Source: a virus. From it: a stretch of 30,404 bases of DNA. Within the stretch, counting starts at the first letter, position 1, and every line of letters starts with the position of its first letter. Positions 558-23,578 of the stretch are shown here, piece after piece. The stretch lies in IMG/VR virus record IMGVR_UViG_3300032291_002536, positions 1 through 30,404 of that record. One strand, written 5' to 3'. The notes beneath the pieces were generated by a model. The model was not told the DNA's origin. It searched no databases and was given only the letters and a program-made list of their open reading frames with translations. Made by a program: the position numbers and the translations under genes.

Positions 558-1268
558 ATGATATGTAATCACAATTGGGTTGGTACTAATATTCACGGGT
601 ACAAGCAGTGTAAGATATGCCTAACTTATACCTTAGAGAATGAGGTAAATACGGGCGTATACAGCAATGATTACTGGAATCCTGCTAATGGGAGAAGTAC
701 GCTAGACGAGCAGGTTCATAACCTAAACTTTGTTCATAATGGAGCGAGTAAGGTTGATAAAGTGATGGCCTATGTCAGCGGCGGCAATAAAGCTCTTGAG
801 ATTGGTTGCGCCCCTGGCAATATGCTTCAGAAACTAGCCGATACACATACCATGGCTTTTGGTATTGAAGTCGATCCCAAGAACTTCCCCGATATAAAGA
901 GAATTGCTGATAGGGACAACACTAGACTATGGGAGGGTTTCTTTCCCTATGACTTCTTTGGCTTGAGGGACAGCACATTTGACACTATCGTAGCCATGGA
1001 TGTTTTGGAACACGCAGACGAGCCTGAGTGGTTTGTTGGACATTGTGCCAATATCTTATCACCCACGGGTAGGCTGATTGTCATGACTCCCGTTATTCAG
1101 CCGGACGTAGCCATGCCTGACCGGATGTGGAACACCGAGGAGCATATATGGGTATTTAGCCATATGCACATTATGGGCATATTCAACCATTATTTTTCTG
1201 ATGTGAGGACTGACTCTTGGCATCCTGGGCATGAGATGGTAATTGGCACAAACAAAAGAAGGAACTGA
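558..1268 (+). CDS. Class I SAM-dependent methyltransferase with N-terminal zinc ribbon
   Basis: The 236-residue protein opens with a short Cys/His cluster (C3, H5, C18, C21) that looks like a small zinc ribbon. A Rossmann methyltransferase follows: motif I is ALEIGCAPGNML near residue 80, the acidic post-I strand is FGIEVDP, and motif IV is the TIVAMDVLEHADEP segment near residue 145, followed by SPTGRLIVMTP. This is the Methyltransf_11/23 pattern typical of small-molecule, sugar or lipid methyltransferases rather than DNA base methylases, since no DPPY or PCQ motif is seen. Its stop overlaps the next start (TGATG), so the two are translationally coupled. Together with the glycosyltransferase-like gene and the second methyltransferase it may form a glycan or base modification set, which is inference. 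The ATG at 558 is the first in frame. Confidence 0.8.
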   Translation: MICNHNWVGTNIHGYKQCKICLTYTLENEVNTGVYSNDYWNPANGRSTLDEQVHNLNFVHNGASKVDKVMAYVSGGNKALEIGCAPGNMLQKLADTHTMAFGIEVDPKNFPDIKRIADRDNTRLWEGFFPYDFFGLRDSTFDTIVAMDVLEHADEPEWFVGHCANILSPTGRLIVMTPVIQPDVAMPDRMWNTEEHIWVFSHMHIMGIFNHYFSDVRTDSWHPGHEMVIGTNKRRN

Positions 1269-2110
1269 TGATTGGGTTTGTTGAAGACGGTCATAAATAT
1301 TTTTCTGTAAGTCCAGAACTACAGGGCGTGGAATGGATATCGGGAACGAAGTTTGCTTCTATGTTTTATGACAAATTTGACCCCGTATTGGGGTCGGTAA
1401 AGGCTAGTCAGAACAAGAAGGGCAAGTGGTTTGGGATGAAGCCAGAAGAGATTCAAAGGGTATGGAAACAAGAGTCTAAAAGGTCTACCGATACCGGAAC
1501 GCTGCATCATTTGGCCATGGAAAAAAAGTATTTAAGCGTGAAGAGCATGCCTCTTTTTGGCCAAGTCTTGCCAGTGTATGCCCCAATCTATGATGATAAG
1601 GGCGTAAAGTTATCTCCTAACCAGTCGTTCCCTACCGGCGTATATCCAGAAGCATTGCTTTATTTGAAGCTAACTGACAATCTAGGAATTTGTGGGCAGT
1701 CTGACACCGTTGCAACATATATGAATATTGGCAATGTTTCGGATCATAAAAGCAATAAGGAGATGAAGATGCAGGGCTATCATGATCGTTTTTCCGGCAA
1801 GACCGAGAAGTTGCATTGGCCTTTTAACTACATGGATAATTGCGACTTCTCCAAGTACACCGTCCAGATGAATCTGTATTTGTACATTATGCTAAAGAAT
1901 AACCCTCAGATGGTAGCAGGGAAGTTGGTTTTACGCCATGTGAAGTTTAGAATAGAAAGCGAGGACGAGTTCGGATTCCCGACTCATGTGTTTGAAAATG
2001 GATTGCCGGTAGTGGATGAGGTAGTAAAGTATGATGTGCCTGTGATCCCGATGTTGACTATGGAGAAAGCAATTAATCATTTAATAGAGCATTATGGCGG
2101 AAAGCAGTAA
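1268..2110 (+). CDS. PD-(D/E)XK nuclease, RecB/Cas4/exonuclease-like
   Basis: The 280-residue protein shows the ordered motifs of the RecB/Cas4-type PD-(D/E)XK superfamily. A helix carries TGTLHHLAME (76-85, GxxxH...E type), a conserved Glu lies in PEALL (128), GQSD carries the metal-binding Asp (146), DHK (159-161) is the D-x-K core, and QMNLYLY (200-206) is the QxxxY helix. No Cys cluster for an iron-sulfur site is evident. Such phage proteins usually process DNA ends during recombination or replication. Here it is sandwiched between two methyltransferases with overlaps at both ends (3 nt upstream, 17 nt downstream), so all three are probably co-translated. Whether it acts in recombination or in defence or counter-defence cannot be told from the sequence. 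Confidence 0.75.
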   Translation: MIGFVEDGHKYFSVSPELQGVEWISGTKFASMFYDKFDPVLGSVKASQNKKGKWFGMKPEEIQRVWKQESKRSTDTGTLHHLAMEKKYLSVKSMPLFGQVLPVYAPIYDDKGVKLSPNQSFPTGVYPEALLYLKLTDNLGICGQSDTVATYMNIGNVSDHKSNKEMKMQGYHDRFSGKTEKLHWPFNYMDNCDFSKYTVQMNLYLYIMLKNNPQMVAGKLVLRHVKFRIESEDEFGFPTHVFENGLPVVDEVVKYDVPVIPMLTMEKAINHLIEHYGGKQ

Positions 2111-2696
2111 AACGATCAAGCGTTGGGGGGAAGAAAGGGAGGACTCTTATTCCGGCAACACGTTGTATTTGGAAATATATGCCGGGCAGGGCATCGACAT
2201 TGGTTGCGGTAGACTGCAAACCTTTGATGGAGCAGACCCCGTCATGCCGGAGGATAAATGCGTCCACCATGACTCAGACATCTGTAACGCTGAGACCATG
2301 GAAATCTTTCAAGACGGCCAATTCGACTACGTCTGGGCATCGCATATCCTAGAGCATTTGGAGAACCCCGTTCTCGCCATTCAGAACTGGTACAGGATTG
2401 TAAAGCCCGGCGGCCTGATCTGCATCTTTGTCCCGTCCGGCTACAGGTACGAGAAAAAGTTAAGCATACCCAACTCAAGGTGGAACTTGGATCATAAGAG
2501 GTTCTATACGCTAGGGTCGTTACTGGCCGAGATTGAGGCGGCCTTAAAGCCGAATACTTACTACATTGAAAGGCTCATGGATTGTGTGGACGGATATGAT
2601 TGGAGTATCCCTCCCGACCAACATCCCGTAGGCGAATACCAGATCGAGTGCGTGATCAGAAAGATTAACCCGCCGGATTGGGAATTGGGGTGCTAG
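2094..2696 (+). CDS. Class I SAM-dependent methyltransferase (Methyltransf_11-like)
   Basis: The 200-residue protein carries motif I GIDIGCG near residue 33, an acidic ADPVMPED strand end, and HHDSDICN. A motif IV segment FDYVWASHILEHLENP is followed by IVKPGGLICIFVPS, the usual Methyltransf_11 pattern. The region preceding motif I is very short, so there is little room for a substrate domain on that side. The tail with FYTLGSLLAEIEA is typical of glycan or secondary-metabolite methyltransferases. The start overlaps the nuclease gene by 17 nt. Its 3' end overlaps the oppositely oriented cytosine methyltransferase by 32 nt (2665-2696), so the two converging transcripts are complementary at their ends. 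It ends with TAG. The substrate is unknown. Confidence 0.75.
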   Translation: MAESSKTIKRWGEEREDSYSGNTLYLEIYAGQGIDIGCGRLQTFDGADPVMPEDKCVHHDSDICNAETMEIFQDGQFDYVWASHILEHLENPVLAIQNWYRIVKPGGLICIFVPSGYRYEKKLSIPNSRWNLDHKRFYTLGSLLAEIEAALKPNTYYIERLMDCVDGYDWSIPPDQHPVGEYQIECVIRKINPPDWELGC

Positions 2697-3801
2697 TGCA
2701 AGGTAGGCTCTTATATTGCTCTATTGCTTTAAATATCTGATAAACCAAAGCAGGAACTACTGCGTTTCCATAGGCTTTGATAGATTCGTTTCGCCACTTA
2801 GGAAAGGTAATACCGTCCAGTTGACGGGAAAGCTCATCATCTCCGCTACAAATAGGGGATTGAGTTGGGAAGTTTTGCCACGTTCCCCGTATTCTTTGTG
2901 AATTTTGTGCTGAAGTATTGACTCCGAAAAACTCTGATTCTTCTCGCTCCTGTCGCATCCCCCCTTCCAATCGCTGGCGCAAGGTGTTGGCAGCATCCCC
3001 TTGATTACATTGCTTAACCCTTGCTGTTTGCTTTTTTGTGATCTCCTGTCTGAGCAATCCGGTGTTGGCAGCAACGCCCCCCCCTTGTACTTCGCCAATG
3101 TTGTTAATGTCACATCCCCTCCGTTCTCCACCTTGTCGATCACCGTTTTCATGTTCCTGCGCTCTATTGATTCGCAAGCCCTTGGTGTCGGCAGTAACCC
3201 CAGTTTTTGCATTGTCGGTTTGTAACCGCTCATTATCTCCTGTGCTAGCGTTCCGCTGTTCCCGCTCACCGGTTTGGCTTTCCCGCTGCTCACTTCGCCG
3301 TCCATTACTGTTGGTGTTTTTAGCAACAAACCAAACCCTATCCCTTCTATGGGGAGCGTTGACGGATACAGCTGGAAGTACATACGGGAATACTTCGTAC
3401 CCCGCAGCTTCCAGGTCAGCTTGCACCTCGTGGAATACCAGCCCTCCTGACCAATTAACAAGGCCGAAAACATTTTCGCCCACAACCCAACGTGGCTGAA
3501 TTTCTCTAATTGCTCTAAGCATTTCGGGCCACAAATGGCGTTCATCCTCCCTCCCTTTTCGCTTTCCAGCCATTGAGTAGGGTTGGCATGGAAATCCTCC
3601 TGTGAGGATGTCAATTTGTCCTCTGTGAATAGTGAAGTCTGTTTTTGTGATGTCATGGTAACTGATTGCTTTAGGCCAATAATGTTTTAGTACTTTTTGT
3701 CCAAACTCGTTCCACTCGCAATGAAAGACGTTCTGCCATCCCATCCATTCGGCTGCTAAATCAAAGCCGCCTATTCCTGAGAATAGTGATCCGTGGTTCA
3801 T
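2665..3801 (-). CDS. DNA (cytosine-5) methyltransferase, large polypeptide
   Basis: The 378-residue protein has the C5-methyltransferase motif order: motif I FSGIGGFDLA (7-16), motif IV GGFPCQPYS with catalytic Cys72, motif VI ENV (109-111), motif VIII RRDRVWFVA (152-160) and motif X GNAVVPALVYQIF (345 on). It transfers a methyl group from SAM to C5 of cytosine in DNA. Between VIII and X lies a hydrophilic, low-complexity stretch of about 165 residues with repeated A-N/D-T triplets. I find no clear canonical motif IX (RxLTxxExxRLQGFP type) in this frame. A second long open frame covers exactly this part of the gene and does carry a motif IX-like segment, see the entry at 2757-3656. The start overlaps the DnaA-like gene by 4 nt (ATGA). 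No cognate restriction enzyme is evident, although an HNH gene is two genes upstream. Confidence 0.9.
   Translation of the reverse strand: MNHGSLFSGIGGFDLAAEWMGWQNVFHCEWNEFGQKVLKHYWPKAISYHDITKTDFTIHRGQIDILTGGFPCQPYSMAGKRKGREDERHLWPEMLRAIREIQPRWVVGENVFGLVNWSGGLVFHEVQADLEAAGYEVFPYVLPAVSVNAPHRRDRVWFVAKNTNSNGRRSEQRESQTGEREQRNASTGDNERLQTDNAKTGVTADTKGLRINRAQEHENGDRQGGERRGCDINNIGEVQGGGVAANTGLLRQEITKKQTARVKQCNQGDAANTLRQRLEGGMRQEREESEFFGVNTSAQNSQRIRGTWQNFPTQSPICSGDDELSRQLDGITFPKWRNESIKAYGNAVVPALVYQIFKAIEQYKSLPCTSTPIPNPAG
2757..3656 (-). CDS. Nested alternative-frame protein, probable second (motif IX) polypeptide of the cytosine methyltransferase
   Basis: This 299-residue open frame lies wholly inside the cytosine methyltransferase gene on the same strand, in another phase. 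It looks like a real protein, not a shadow. It opens with TSLFTEDKLTSSQEDFHANP, has a Trp/Cys-containing segment (GWYSTRCKLTWKLRGTKYSR), four spaced (L/M)L(P/K)TP motifs, and ends with LNPLFVAEMMSFPVNW (265-280), which resembles C5-methyltransferase motif IX. I recognise this pattern from many bacterial and phage proteins encoded with such methylases. From memory of the family, M.EcoHK31I and M.EaeI consist of two polypeptides whose genes overlap in different frames, the smaller supplying motif IX; this locus fits that plan. The likely role is target recognition together with the large polypeptide. The start chosen is the ATG at 3656, without a visible ribosome site. Confidence 0.7.
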   Translation of the reverse strand: MTSQKQTSLFTEDKLTSSQEDFHANPTQWLESEKGGRMNAICGPKCLEQLEKFSHVGLWAKMFSALLIGQEGWYSTRCKLTWKLRGTKYSRMYFQLYPSTLPIEGIGFGLLLKTPTVMDGEVSSGKAKPVSGNSGTLAQEIMSGYKPTMQKLGLLPTPRACESIERRNMKTVIDKVENGGDVTLTTLAKYKGGALLPTPDCSDRRSQKSKQQGLSNVIKGMLPTPCASDWKGGCDRSEKNQSFSESILQHKIHKEYGERGKTSQLNPLFVAEMMSFPVNWTVLPFLSGETNLSKPMETQ

Positions 3802-4277
3802 AAATACTTCCTCACTACTTTTTCGTGTTCGGAAATAGTGCGCTCCCGCAATCTGATTGGGGCCTGACTGCGATAAATCGTAACCGGAACCGCCACCCTA
3901 TCAATCTTTGGCATCCTCCTTACCGGCGTAGGATTCTCCAATTCGGCCATGATGTAGGCTAAATCCTGTTTGAACTTGGGATCACTTTCTGCCAAGTCGC
4001 AGACCTGCTTAATACTATGTCGTACAGTAGTGTGCTTTGGTAGGCTTACCCGACTAGGACAATCAAATTCCGCGGCAATTTCATTCAACGTCATGCCGAG
4101 GTATGAGTACATAAGCGCCATGCATATCTGGCGTGGGACACAAAACTTCCTTTTCTGATTTACGGCCATATCCAACTTGTTCAGGTTGAAATAGCCGGCA
4201 ACAAAATCAATAATCCTTTCAGGGGTAATGCTTCCGTCTGTAATTCTGGGCGTAATCCACTTTCTATTTTTGTCCAT
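3798..4277 (-). CDS. Stand-alone DnaA domain IV-like DNA-binding protein
   Basis: The protein contains VPRQICMALMYSYLGMTLNE, IAAEF and HTTVRHSIKQV, the helix-turn-helix plus basic signature region of DnaA domain IV (the usual DHTTVLHA motif is here KHTTVRHS). No AAA+ domain is present, so it is a small replication- or transcription-related DNA binder rather than an initiator ATPase. I chose the ATG at 4277 (159 residues). A TTG at 4322 would add 15 residues including two cysteines but needs a weak start codon. The end overlaps the start of the cytosine methyltransferase by 4 nt, so the two are coupled. Possible jobs are recognition of DnaA-box-like sites at a phage origin, or regulation of this leftward cassette; both are inference. 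Confidence 0.65.
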   Translation of the reverse strand: MDKNRKWITPRITDGSITPERIIDFVAGYFNLNKLDMAVNQKRKFCVPRQICMALMYSYLGMTLNEIAAEFDCPSRVSLPKHTTVRHSIKQVCDLAESDPKFKQDLAYIMAELENPTPVRRMPKIDRVAVPVTIYRSQAPIRLRERTISEHEKVVRKYL

Positions 4278-4363
4278 AACTCCATTTTTGCATACATGAG
4301 GGCATGTTGATTCCTTGTCCAAATTGCCTTGTTTATTCTTGGGACGGCTTTCCCCAGATAATT

Positions 4364-4909
4364 TTAGTTTTTACTTTTGCCGTGATGCCTAGAGTGGCAT
4401 TTTTGGCAAACTGTAATTAATAGTGAATCTGGATGCTCCCAAGCTTTTGCGCCATTGATATATCTCTTGTGGTGAACCTGCAACTCCTTATTGGTGTCAC
4501 ACATTTGACACCTGCCGTTATCTCTTTGAATAATCCGGCTTCGAAGGGTGAGCCATTCTATGTTCTTTAATTCAGCTTCGTACTCTATCTTTCGTGGACT
4601 TTTGTATTCGCCAACTTTGACTTTACTTCCTGATATTGAAACTTTGTGTTCGCCAAATTTTCCATTGTCATATAATTGGCCAATCACTTGCCCATAACTA
4701 ATTCGAGTAGCAATCGGGATACCCATGGCGCCAAGGGTTATTTCAGCCATATTACTAAACTTTGTCAGTTGACTTCCTGGCTCCATTATCCCTTTTGATG
4801 TCAGGTATCTTCTCATCGCCCCAATTAATTCGGACTTCCTTTTCAGATTAGCCTTGATTTCCATTCTTCTGCTGGCCGATGGCGTCTTACCTTTCTTACT
4901 CTTAGCCAT
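4364..4909 (-). CDS. HNH endonuclease
   Basis: The 181-residue protein has a C-terminal HNH nuclease fold. A first zinc knuckle CQMC (134-137) is followed by VHHKRY with the catalytic His, a middle segment AWEHPDSL, and a second CQKCHSRHH knuckle (168-176). The N-terminal 120 residues are basic and unrecognised (many K and R in the first 30), possibly a DNA-binding part. Phage HNH proteins of this size are either packaging-associated nickases near terminase and portal genes or free-standing homing endonucleases. Its position next to the portal gene favours the first, while the absence of terminase in the window leaves both open. It is the first gene of the leftward cassette and sits behind a structured leader of about 420 nt starting at the leftward promoter at 5339-5369. 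Confidence 0.85.
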   Translation of the reverse strand: MAKSKKGKTPSASRRMEIKANLKRKSELIGAMRRYLTSKGIMEPGSQLTKFSNMAEITLGAMGIPIATRISYGQVIGQLYDNGKFGEHKVSISGSKVKVGEYKSPRKIEYEAELKNIEWLTLRSRIIQRDNGRCQMCDTNKELQVHHKRYINGAKAWEHPDSLLITVCQKCHSRHHGKSKN

Positions 4910-18634: not shown

Positions 18635-19332
18635 TGTCAGAGTTAGGTGCCATACAAACTACTCTTATAGGTAATCCTAATGATACAGGAGGCACTATTG
18701 TATCTGTTGACCCTACAACGGTTGCGGATAATGTTTTTGTATTTGATGCTTATGGGCAAAAATGGAAAAGAATTTCAGACGGACCCTATCGTGCTGCTTG
18801 GGTAGTAAATAGATTGGGAAGTCAGACATCTAGATTGCAGGCCGTATTTAATCACCCAAACGTTTATGAAGTTGTGTTTGATGACGGGGATGTAACGCTT
18901 TCTGGAACACTAACAATTCCTGCCGGAAAAGTAATTACGTTTAGGGGTAACGGAGCCGTTATAGGAACATACACCATTAGCGGAGGGATTGTACATTCTG
19001 GCAGGTATGAGGAATCATTCAAGGGTACGCCGACACTTAATATTGCAGGTGTAAGGGGCGGATCAACAAAAGACCCATTTACCTTGGCTACTGACGGGTC
19101 AAGAGTTGTACCCGTTGGAGCATATGTCAAAAGGGTATTGGTTAAGTCTAGTTCAAATTTGACGGGGTTTAAAGTTGGTACATCTAGTGGTGCCGACAAC
19201 CTTACATCAACACAACCAAATGCATCTGGCGAGTTTGTACCGTACAATATAGACAAGTACTACGAAGCAGGAGGATTTGTACACTTCGGAGGAATTACAT
19301 CATCAACAAAATTCATTATTTTTTATGAATAA
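18634..19332 (+). CDS. Fibre/spike-like protein with beta-helix character
   Basis: The 232-residue protein has an N-terminal part ([20 protein letters not shown]) with a [14 protein letters not shown] segment found in phage fibre adaptor domains. A central stretch ([20 protein letters not shown], then [11 protein letters not shown]) resembles the first turns of a pectate-lyase-like right-handed beta-helix, but it is too short to be an enzyme. A C-terminal beta domain reads [19 protein letters not shown]. It probably attaches to or caps the following collagen-like fibre, whose start overlaps its last 8 nt. No catalytic residues can be pointed to. Confidence 0.6.
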
Positions 19333-22300
19333 GATTCTTTTATTTCTGTCCATTCTCCTTCTATCATTTACGAGTTACGGCCAAGTTGTAAGTGAGCCGA
19401 ACAGACTTTTCCCAAAGTTTAATTTTGCTGTACCAAACGACACAATATTCCCTGCCATTAAAGTGGGAGAGTTGAGAAATAAAGTCAGTGATAATTTTCT
19501 TTACAAATGGAACGGGTCTGCTTGGTTAAGGATAGGCGCTACAGGACCCCAAGGTCCTACGGGGGCTACTGGACCCCAAGGTCCTACAGGAGCAACGGGA
19601 CCCAATGGCGCAACGGGTGCGCAAGGACCACAAGGTATTCAAGGAATAAAAGGCGATACAGGTGTGACGGGTATTCAGGGTCCTACCGGACCCCAAGGTT
19701 CTGTTGGACCCGCTGGACCCCAAGGTTCTTCTGGCTCTATTGGAGCAACCGGACCTCAAGGCCCTACGGGAGCAACTGGACCTCAGGGAACAACAGGCGC
19801 AACCGGCGCTACCGGACCCCAAGGCCCTACGGGAGCTACAGGAGCAACTGGGTCGAATGGCACCTCGGTTGTTATACTTGGGTCTGTGGGGTCTATCGGA
19901 GCTTTACCAAGTTCAGGTAATACAGTAGGTGATGGGTATATTTTATCAACAACTGGTCATTTGTATGTTTGGTCAGGAACGGCTTGGGTAGATGTAGGAG
20001 AGATTAGGGGTCCTCAAGGACTTACAGGCGCAACTGGACCACAAGGACCTACAGGTGCTACCGGACCACAAGGTATTCCAGGTACTACGGGTGTACAAGG
20101 TATTCAAGGACTTACAGGTGCTACCGGACCACAAGGACCTACAGGTGCAACAGGGCCACAAGGTATTCAAGGGATAAAAGGTGATACGGGTGTAACGGGT
20201 TCCACAGGACCTACTGGACCTCAAGGCCCTACGGGAGCTACCGGACCTCAAGGCCCTACGGGGGCTACAGGCGCAACAGGTATTCAAGGCATTCAAGGTA
20301 TAAAAGGCGATACGGGTCTAACAGGTCTTCAAGGTCCTACCGGACCCCAAGGAACAACAGGAGCAACTGGTCCTCAGGGTTCCACGGGCGCAACAGGAGC
20401 AACAGGAGCAACAGGTCTTCAAGGTCCTACCGGACCCCAAGGTCCTACGGGGGCTACAGGAGCAACCGGACCCCAAGGCCCTACCGGAGCAACCGGAGCA
20501 ACCGGAGCAACTGGTGCAGCCGGTACATCGGTAACAATAAAAGGAACAGTAAATAGTGTAGGGGCTTTACCAAGTTCGGGTAATACAATAGGTGACGGTT
20601 ACATTTTAAGCACTAACGGCCATCTATACACATGGTCAGGTTCTGCATGGGTTGACGTTGGAGAGATTAGAGGTCCCCAAGGCATTCAGGGACCCGCGGG
20701 TCCACAAGGTGCTGTGGGTCCTACAGGCGCTACGGGACCGCAAGGTATTCAGGGAATAAAGGGTGATACTGGTGCAACAGGTCTTCAAGGTCCTACCGGA
20801 CCTCAGGGAGCAACTGGAGCAGCTGGTCCTCAGGGTATTCAGGGTGTTACAGGACCTCAGGGACCTCCTGGTAGTGGTACAGTAATATCAGTGTCTACCA
20901 ACAATAGCACAGGCATAACTGGTGGAACAATTACTGGGTCGGGAACACTTGCCATTGACACAACTATTCTATCAACGATAGCAAACGCTCAGAGAATTGT
21001 TAATGATTCCTCTGCGTTACTTCGTGCCAGAACCGATACATTCTCTCTTCTATCCACTAAAGCGAATGCTCTTAAAGTAGTTAATGATAGTACTTGGGAC
21101 ACGGTTTTTAGGGTAATACCTGTAGTAGCACCTATTGCAAGAACAGTTGACTATTTGCTAAATAGGGGGTTTGAAGTAGTACTATCAGAAGTTCCTGGCG
21201 TAACAAGCACTGCTGGATGGTCTTGGACACAGAATGGAACTCCTCGAACATTTAATTTAGTTACACCGGCATATAGCTTTGATGGAAATGCCTATGCTAT
21301 AGCACTAAGAGTTTCTGGTGCTAATTATCTACCAACTGATACTATCGTTGTAAGCTACGATAATACTGTTGGCATTACTGCTGGAACATCAGGAACTAAG
21401 TTAATGAGTTTTACGGCTGCTGTAGGACAAACTCCGATTTTACCAGATAGTAGGTTTGTATTAACTACTAGAAAACAACTTCAGAAACTTGTAAATGATA
21501 CGGCTAAAGTTTTAAGAGAGTTGGCTAATGTAAATCCTAATATATATACCACAGATGGAACTATAGTCGGCTCTCGAACAATAACTCATGGCACTAATAC
21601 TCCAGTTATATTTACTGGTGACTTACAGGTAAGAAGTGGTATGACCATTGGGAATAGAGGAGTTTCTACTAATCAAGTATTTGGACCTGGCGCACTTCAA
21701 GGTGCAACATCACCAGGAGTAGCCAATATGGGAATAGGGATAAATGCAGGAGCTTTAATGACAACTAATTCTTATAACACATATATAGGATACGCAGCAG
21801 GAAGCGGATCAACTGCGCACGCATCAACTTCTAATAACAATGTAGGTCTTGGTCCATTTGCTTTAAATGGAATTACTTCTGGTTTTAATAATGGTGCTTA
21901 TGGTAGAGACGTATTGTTAAGATTAACTTCTGGATCTGAGAACATAGTCATGGGTCCTTTCGGGTTTCAATGGCTAACTACTGGTACTAAAAATATTGCA
22001 ATCGGAAGTGAAATTGCTTCTGCCGGAGGCGGTAGCAATGGGAGTAGAAACGTGTATCTTGGGCATAAAGTTGCAAAACAAAATATTGGAAGTGGTAATG
22101 TTTGGATTGGTACAGAAGTCGGTGAGACTACTTTTGATACTTCAAGCAATACTTTATTAATAGGCAACAGCAATACACCAACTCCGCTAATAGCCGGAAG
22201 ATTTGATAGAGATTCACTAGCAATAAATGGACAACTAACATTGTCTACTGATCCACCTTTAGGAGATTCTACAACAAGAGTACCTACAACTGCTTGGGTA

Positions 22301-23578
22301 AAAAGAAATAGTAGCTCTGGTGGTGGTGGAGGTGGAGGTGGTATTACATCGCTTGGTATTTCTGGCAGTAGTCAAACGGGTTCCACCCAAACGCTCGCAA
22401 CGGGTACATCTGGTACTGATTTCAATATAACATCGGCAAGCAATACCCACACTTTCAATATTCCAAATGCAAGCGGGTCTAATCGTGGAGCTTTGACTTC
22501 ATCCGATTGGACTACTTTTAGTAATAAGCAATCTGCCCTTGTATCTGGTACAAATATCAAGACCGTGAACGGGAATAGCTTGTTGGGATCGGGAGACTTA
22601 GTTATATCTGGTGGCGGTGGCGTAACCATTAATAACAATACCAATAACAACATTCTTACAGCTAGTGGCACAGCCAATACAATTAACGGCGAAGGTGCGC
22701 TTACGTTTGATGGAACTATTTTGGGTGTTTACTCTAATGGGGCGGTTGATTTGCCGACCGGAACTACTGCGCAGCGACCTGTTGCTAACGAGCAGGGAGG
22801 GTCACTTCGTTACAATACAACCTTTAATACGCTAGAGGTTTATGCTGACGGTGCTTGGGCGACAATGGGGTCTCAATCTGAAAAAAGTAGAGTAAGTCAG
22901 GGGTTATACTACCACCAAGAGTTTATGAACACCTTTGGTACCACAGGAGATGGAACCCTTTTAGTTTCCAGTAGCGGGTCCGGCGCACAGTCGGTAAACT
23001 CTGCCACTACTGCTGCTAATCGCCCTGGACTTGTGAGAATGACAACGGGAACAACGTCATCTGGCAGAGCTTCAATTACTTCTGGGTTAAACTCTGTCAT
23101 GTTGGGTGCGGGAACATTCTCATTTAAGACATCAATTAATATCGCAACACTGTCTACATCGGGAGAAAGGTATCAGCTTCTGGTTGGATTATTTGATGAA
23201 AATACTGCTGCCAACCAAGTAGATGGCGTATATATAGTGTACGACGAGGGTGGCGTATCAACTGGATCAACTCCGGCAGGTTACTGGCAGTCATGTACAT
23301 CTTCAAACTCTACAAGGTCATTTAATAATGGACACACGCAGATTACTGTTCCTGCCGCTACATGGGTTAATCTTCGTGTGGATGTTAATGCCAATGGTGG
23401 GTTTGCATACTTCTATGTGAACGATGTGTTGTTAGCCACTCATTCGACAAACATCCCAACGGGTTCCGGTAGAGAACTTGGTTTTGGCGTTTTAAAAATA
23501 AAATCTTCTGGCACTACAGCCAGAACAACAGATATCGACTATATAAATGTAGACAATGTATTTTCCACATCTCGATAA
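19325..23578 (+). CDS. Collagen-like tail fibre with signal-peptide-like N-terminus
   Basis: I chose the ATG at 19325, not the in-frame start at 19277, because it gives [20 protein letters not shown], a textbook Bacteroidetes signal peptide, with only 8 nt overlap to the previous gene. The 1417-residue product continues with a short domain, three blocks of G-x-y collagen repeats (about residues 71-517) split by two near-identical non-collagen modules, a beta region, NxxIG-type repeats resembling trimeric adhesin heads (about 780-960), a Gly-rich hinge, a [17 protein letters not shown] segment known from phage fibres, a [10 protein letters not shown] segment, and a C-terminal lectin-like beta-sandwich of about 220 residues. 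Collagen repeats imply a trimer. It is most likely the main long fibre or a host-surface-like adhesin; the signal peptide is hard to explain in a virion protein. Confidence 0.8.
19535..20873 (+). repeat. Collagen-type G-x-y repeat region
   Basis: Three blocks (about 19535-19861, 20008-20525, 20674-20873) are built of 18-bp units such as GGACCCCAAGGTCCTACG, encoding GPQGPTGAT-type triplets, with GIQGIKGDT variants. They are separated by two copies of a 50-residue module containing [17 protein letters not shown]. DNA identity between units is high, so this region is prone to recombination and to misassembly. Confidence 0.9.

Follow-up and report, generated by a model that had tools for sequence, protein, structure and literature searches.

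The question that this locus raises is whether two long reading frames that run along the same strand over the same 900 nt both encode proteins and, if they do, what the two proteins make together. The locus lies in the window, by which we mean the whole 30,404 nt stretch of IMG/VR virus record IMGVR_UViG_3300032291_002536 that was analysed. An earlier note, made from the letters of the window, had reported two long minus-strand frames over positions 2757-3656, and both ORFs were found exactly there. The outer ORF is referred to here as alpha and the inner one as beta, and they are laid out as follows:

2665-3801, minus strand: alpha, the outer ORF, 378 aa
2757-3656, minus strand: beta, the inner ORF, in the +1 frame relative to alpha, 299 aa plus stop, comprising an N-domain, four LPTP modules and motif IX (phrog_1008; kept in every relative fetched)
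3654-3656, minus strand: ATG at which beta starts, 145 nt into alpha, unstructured and SD-less (alignment and RNA structure)
3798-4322, minus strand: gene with a DnaA C-terminal HTH (PF08299, E=3.9e-12), upstream of alpha, its stop overlapping the alpha start (ATGA)

Elsewhere in the window, an HNH endonuclease-like gene (4364-4909, minus strand) lies two genes upstream of alpha. Downstream, on the opposite strand, are a methyltransferase-like ORF at 2094-2696 (plus strand), which matched Methyltransf_11 with E=2.2e-11, and another at 558-1268 (plus strand), which was judged by eye. A 1433-aa ORF at 19277-23578 (plus strand) contains long collagen-like Gly-X-Y repeats and probably encodes a tail or fibre protein.

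The two proteins were searched separately; alpha led to PF00145, TIGR00675 and phrog_363, and beta led to phrog_1008. By its sequence alpha is clearly a C5-cytosine DNA methyltransferase and the predicted catalytic subunit: it matched PF00145 with E=1.4e-45 and 156.6 bits (cut-off 22), TIGR00675 with E=6e-43 and 147.7 bits (cut-off 100.65) and phrog_363 with E=9.9e-71 (~1e-70), and M.HhaI matched alpha residues 5-164 with E=3e-20. The residues of the catalytic PCQ (motif IV), of ENV (motif VI) and of motifs I, VIII and X were invariant or nearly so across the alpha alignment, A2. The earlier note had described the outer frame as carrying methyltransferase motifs but no clear motif IX, and this description held, with motifs I-VIII and X present in alpha and motif IX absent from the alpha chain in A2 and found in beta instead. 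The parts of alpha are:

3751-3789, minus strand: alpha motif I (SLFSGIGGFDLAA), from alignment A2
3565-3600, minus strand: alpha motif IV (GGFPCQPYSMAG) with the catalytic Cys72; P71, C72 and Q73 invariant in A2
3463-3486, minus strand: alpha motif VI (VVGENVFG); E109, N110 and V111 invariant in A2
3322-3351, minus strand: alpha motif VIII (HRRDRVWFVA); H151, R153 and R155 invariant in A2
2872-3321, minus strand: alpha linker from motif VIII to the pre-X block, open, with amino-acid constraint undetectable in frame-blind DNA matches
2722-2775, minus strand: alpha motif X (AYGNAVVPALVYQIFKAI, including GNAVVP); G345 invariant, N346 and A347 nearly so

Some relatives carry altered forms of this frame. 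L008 has an HNH homing-type domain (3870-4340) fused in the alpha frame at the expected position of motif X, L089 has a single in-frame stop in the alpha linker near 1154, which may reflect decay or an assembly error, and in L197 (Bacteroides finegoldii plasmid NZ_OY725938.1) the alpha frame is broken and has been annotated as separate pieces, with beta open over 353 codons.

Beta matched phrog_1008, a family labelled 'DNA methyltransferase', with E=2.5e-22, and this homology was recovered in 23/23 of the beta members tested. Comparison of beta with Pfam and NCBIfam gave no match; a PDB sequence search gave weak antibody-chain matches at most with beta itself and none with the beta profile. 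The AF2 model of beta is poor (pLDDT 55). The elements of the N-domain core in AF2 are H43-52, H58-68, E79-86 and E92-99, and the conserved residues of this domain are W73, W82 and L96. The parts of beta are:

3327-3533, minus strand: beta N-domain core, residues 42-110, overprinting alpha motifs VI-VIII (AF2 and conservation)
3195-3323, minus strand: beta module 1 (LKTPTVMDGEV...), candidate recognition cassette; related modules stand first or second in other phages, at most 91% aa identity
3072-3194, minus strand: beta module 2 (LPTPRACESIERR...), candidate recognition cassette; recurs in L007, L001 and L029
2994-3071, minus strand: beta module 3 (LPTPDCSDRRSQ...), candidate recognition cassette; L001, L035 (index 3), L230 and others
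2877-2993, minus strand: beta module 4 (LPTPCASDWKGGC...), candidate recognition cassette; L015, L164 and L245
2802-2873, minus strand: beta motif IX segment (TSQLNPLFVAEMMSFPVNWTVLPF), from profile alignment to single-chain relatives

The C-terminal half of beta aligned with the module-IX segment of single-chain relatives (hhalign prob 96.1, E=3.2e-9), a profile comparison that shows its homology to the VIII-X segment of those relatives. The motif IX-like segment that had been noticed earlier at the end of the inner frame was borne out by this profile alignment. In L172 (1223-1946) the beta frame is without motif IX and continues into motif X, possibly through decay or an assembly error. In L002 (2227-2653), L059 (3394-3820) and L170 (2498-2897) an HNH-type ORF of ~135-140 aa follows directly after beta in the +1 frame; it lies inside the alpha gene between motifs IX and X and is thus a third gene nested there, and the alpha frame is open through it as far as motif X.

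The possibility that the inner frame is open by chance was addressed by permutation. When the alpha protein and its codon usage were kept and synonymous codons were permuted, the beta frame was open in 0/20,000 permutations, the stops in the beta span averaged 9.0 with a minimum of 1, and the longest +1 ORF reached 247 codons, compared with 309 observed. The reverse permutation, in which beta was kept, placed 10.7 stops in alpha, with a minimum of 3. Over 147 distinct loci the inner frame would be expected to hold 6.7 stops, and the third frame actually has 19.1. An inner frame open by chance is excluded, and the chance-ORF reading of beta is ruled out by the permutation tests.

Selection on the locus is divided between the two frames by segment. 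Because binning by beta identity favours beta, the selection test in the module region was rerun with blastn DNA matches found without using any frame. All of the ungapped DNA matches in this region (954/954) were in phase, and those with 70-80% DNA identity gave amino-acid differences of 0.189 in beta, 0.554 in alpha and 0.504 in the third frame. The modules are therefore selected in beta only, and the alpha linker between motifs VIII and X is an open, non-coding-like frame; the evident reason for its being kept open would be that motif X must sit in cis with motifs I-VIII. Elsewhere in beta, residues 4-70 were not conserved above the third frame (0.589/0.585, 0.567/0.579 and 0.525/0.542), residues 71-84 were more conserved than the third frame (0.370 vs 0.484), and residues 268-282, in the motif IX segment, were strongly conserved (amino-acid difference 0.237 vs 0.470 in the third frame) in a place where alpha is constrained too. 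Third-position differences per alpha codon, compared in pairs with 70-97% alpha identity, were 0.57 in the alpha-only motif X part vs 0.26 in the motif IX overlap. Double constraint on both frames falls mainly on beta residues 71-112, where it is modest, and on the motif IX segment. The earlier claim that both frames are protein-like over the same 900 nt is correct for segments of the overlap but not uniformly, beta residues ~4-70 and alpha from motif VIII to about motif IX being at the level of the third frame. A long same-strand overlap can last in this manner, with selection split by segment and only short stretches serving both frames. The lack of constraint beyond the third frame at beta ~4-70 would agree with beta being a non-functional frame that is open through composition or through the constraints on alpha, a reading that is hardly credible in view of the synonymous permutation tests, the strong purifying selection in the modules and motif IX and the phrog_1008 homology of every member tested.

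The arrangement was then found to extend well beyond the window. The nested +1 pair was present in 80/80 IMG/VR loci picked by alpha alone, which are the closest loci by alpha similarity and represent the near family only, in 80/80 beta-selected viral loci and in 80/80 loci from GTDB genomes (beta-selected, mostly Bacteroidota). The number of alpha-selected relatives in which the inner frame is closed by stops was 0/80; the frame closes early in distant relatives only, and the modules and motif IX are then in alpha's frame. The same layout occurs in Bacteroides phages BKO1-TP3 and BS-TP4, Lactobacillus phage Lc-Nu and Lacticaseibacillus phage R9.1, in all of which beta is unannotated, and in Paenibacillus phage Tadhana and E. 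coli phage K1G, in which both genes are annotated. The earlier note had seen in the locus a larger version of M.EcoHK31I and M.EaeI; with examples in Bacteroides, Paenibacillus and Lactobacillus phages and in E. coli K1G, the arrangement is not unusual. Our literature search found no paper describing the overlap as widespread in phages, and the basic idea is already known, because the M.EcoHK31I arrangement matches and some GenBank records annotate both genes. Many phage annotations lack the beta gene, including those of BKO1-TP3, BS-TP4 and Lc-Nu, and in such cases the annotated gene alone therefore cannot predict recognition specificity.

Other relatives distribute the same parts differently over the frames. 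In Cheoctovirus-type mycobacteriophages the beta profile matches in two pieces, the N-domain in +1 (iE 2.8e-10) and the part with the modules and motif IX in the frame of alpha (iE 1.1e-7). The whole module-IX-X block is read in +1 in L222, L223, Firecracker and Andrew. KyMonks1A and L219 have motif IX in alpha, and in +1 they have a segment like the N-domain together with one or more modules. From these differing layouts it follows that the block of recognition modules and motif IX has passed from one frame to the other during evolution, in one direction or the other.

The start of beta was compared across the same family. An ATG lies within one codon of the beta-start column in 95/134 relatives, and the usual distance from the alpha start to the beta start is 142, 145 or 175 nt; beta usually ends 50-110 nt before the alpha stop. 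RNA structure was minimal at the beta ATG, with a mean of -1.4 kcal/mol in 36 nt vs -4 to -7 at positions at least 48 nt away, and in 110/134 loci it was weaker than after permutation of the synonymous codons (expected -1.80, observed -1.37 kcal/mol), a dip that arises in part because alpha's codons there are AT-rich. SD-like motifs were found at 3/134 beta starts and 15/134 alpha starts. Initiation without an SD motif is known in Bacteroidota, and the features of the beta start fit such initiation, from which we infer that beta is translated. Programmed ribosomal frameshifting could instead join the two frames into one chain, with motifs I-VIII from alpha and the modules and motif IX from beta; the motifs do follow one another on the DNA as in a single-chain enzyme, and some relatives are single-chain. 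We regard frameshifting as very improbable, since one shift would lose motif X, which is again read in the alpha frame, beta possesses a separate start codon (ATG) behind an unstructured leader, and the boundary codons at alpha 157-168 are variable and contain no invariant slippery site.

The middle of beta is formed by tandem units that open with L-x-T-P. A total of 379 modules were recognized in 134 betas, with a median length of 39 aa and 1-5 modules per beta, four of them in this locus. Under strict rules for splitting and clustering (a looser version lumped 206 modules in one cluster), they fell into ~135 types at 55% identity, 53 of which are shared, and a single module type can be found at varied positions and beside many different neighbours. 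All four modules of this locus recur in other phages, and module 2 is found at index 1, 2 and 3 in L007, L001 and L029, respectively, at 90-93% identity, with alpha cores that are 76-81% identical. Among pairs whose alpha cores share at least 85% DNA identity, 113/120 differed in at least one module by a chosen similarity cut-off. L027, L034 and L043 are 98.9-99.2% identical from the alpha start to the first LPTP and 92-96% identical from motif IX to the alpha end, and despite these near-identical flanks their module regions are largely unrelated. The combination of near-identical alpha cores with differing module sets means that the cassettes are being exchanged. LPTP had been taken in the earlier note for a general pattern of methylase-linked proteins; it instead opens each of the 1-5 exchangeable modules, which make up most of beta.

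These patterns suggest that the LPTP modules are likely target-recognition cassettes and that the recognition part would be in beta and not in alpha, at least in this nested-beta phage family. The AF2 model of a single-chain relative has the M.HhaI fold (M.HhaI was the best PDB match, and Foldseek re-finds C5 methyltransferases only), with the catalytic domain and the IX-X part confident and the modules disordered. Because AF2 leaves the modules disordered even in this single-chain relative, predicted structures give the recognition role no support. The disorder would suit a beta that provides motif IX and a structural scaffold only, with the LPTP repeats as spacers and recognition in alpha between motifs VIII and X, as would the assignment of the predicted TRD of M.EcoHK31I to the large subunit (PMC3404938). 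We consider this arrangement improbable, however. Constraint on alpha between VIII and X is no greater than in the third frame and the beta modules are strongly constrained; the modules are conserved and exchanged as units, unlike spacers; and single-chain relatives hold similar modules between motifs VIII and IX, which is the TRD position.

There is good support for a C5 methyltransferase made of two polypeptides in which the nested partner carries motif IX. We consider it likely that the locus as a whole encodes, in its two overlapping frames, the two subunits of a single C5-cytosine DNA methyltransferase, with the recognition modules in beta, and that the enzyme serves phage self-protection. 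Alpha would fold the catalytic domain from motifs I-VIII and X, and beta, translated from its own internal ATG, would supply the N-terminal domain, the exchangeable LPTP modules as target-recognition domains and motif IX. The two chains would come together as a single enzyme that probably recognises more than one target site, and its most likely use would be to protect the phage's own DNA from host restriction by methylation. The same enzyme could have another role, in phage or host gene regulation or in marking DNA for replication or packaging, and alpha does adjoin the DnaA-HTH gene here and replication genes in related phages. Such a role is unlikely in our judgement, since rapid cassette exchange between fixed flanks would better fit an arms race over recognition sites.

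For this proposed methyltransferase we suggest a further step, tentatively and with somewhat less than even confidence, namely that beta is an exchangeable specificity subunit with an HsdS-like role in a C5 system. Cassettes would be swapped in the overprinted frame, each reading its own site, the alpha overlap would be an open linker, and the block would have moved between frames, splitting and rejoining the enzyme. Swapping cassettes would let the phage change the DNA sites that are marked. Should the modules prove to be recognition domains, phages would offer hundreds of cassettes with different targets as natural components for split C5 methyltransferases that can be re-targeted, and M.EcoHK31I has already been engineered as an enzyme of this kind (PMC3439449). 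Taken as a whole, the observation made in the earlier note is confirmed and its interpretation is partly supported.

Two-polypeptide enzymes of this kind include M.EaeI, which has overlapping genes, and M.EcoHK31I, in which the small gene is nested inside the large one. M.EcoHK31I, whose specificity is YGGCCR, can be likened to alpha/beta by its published description as a C5 methyltransferase of two polypeptides, the larger holding motifs I-VIII and X and the smaller motif IX (PMC3404938). Alpha likewise holds I-VIII and X and beta holds IX, so the comparison with M.EcoHK31I that was drawn in the earlier note was apt. Unlike M.EcoHK31I, with its TRD predicted in the large subunit, the locus has four recognition-type modules in beta. 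M.AquI is a natural two-chain C5 methyltransferase with motifs I-VIII in its alpha chain and the distal TRD and motifs IX-X in its beta chain (PMC3404938); it differs in having motif X in beta, a layout shown among the relatives by Firecracker, Andrew and L222.

Genes 54/55 of Paenibacillus phage Tadhana and gp34/gp35 of E. coli phage K1G have the identical nested +1 layout; the Tadhana beta is in alignment A1, and the beta profile matches the K1G inner ORF. Both are distant from this locus in sequence and have fewer modules, and the K1G alpha differs at its N-terminus. In Streptococcus phage MM1 1998, orf13/orf14, annotated as C5 methyltransferase alpha/beta subunits, also have the small ORF nested in +1, but the large ORF has its own in-frame motif IX (RKLTPRECWRLQGFP), and the small ORF lacks both an LPTP module and a match to the beta profile. 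In Streptococcus phages a nested small ORF accompanies a large ORF with its own motif IX at L186 (1452-1877) and L194 (1446-1871).

Known tandem TRD units are ~40 aa long, and beta resembles the multispecific phage methyltransferases in having contiguous units of ~40 aa (here 1-5, median 39 aa). In the Bacillus phage methyltransferases SPR, SPbeta, phi3T and H2 several TRDs stand in tandem in a single chain (PMC8936443), unlike the tandem described here, which is in a second polypeptide and in another frame. Beyond the known split arrangement, what the comparison adds is the modules of beta, the division of selection between the frames and the exchange of cassettes.
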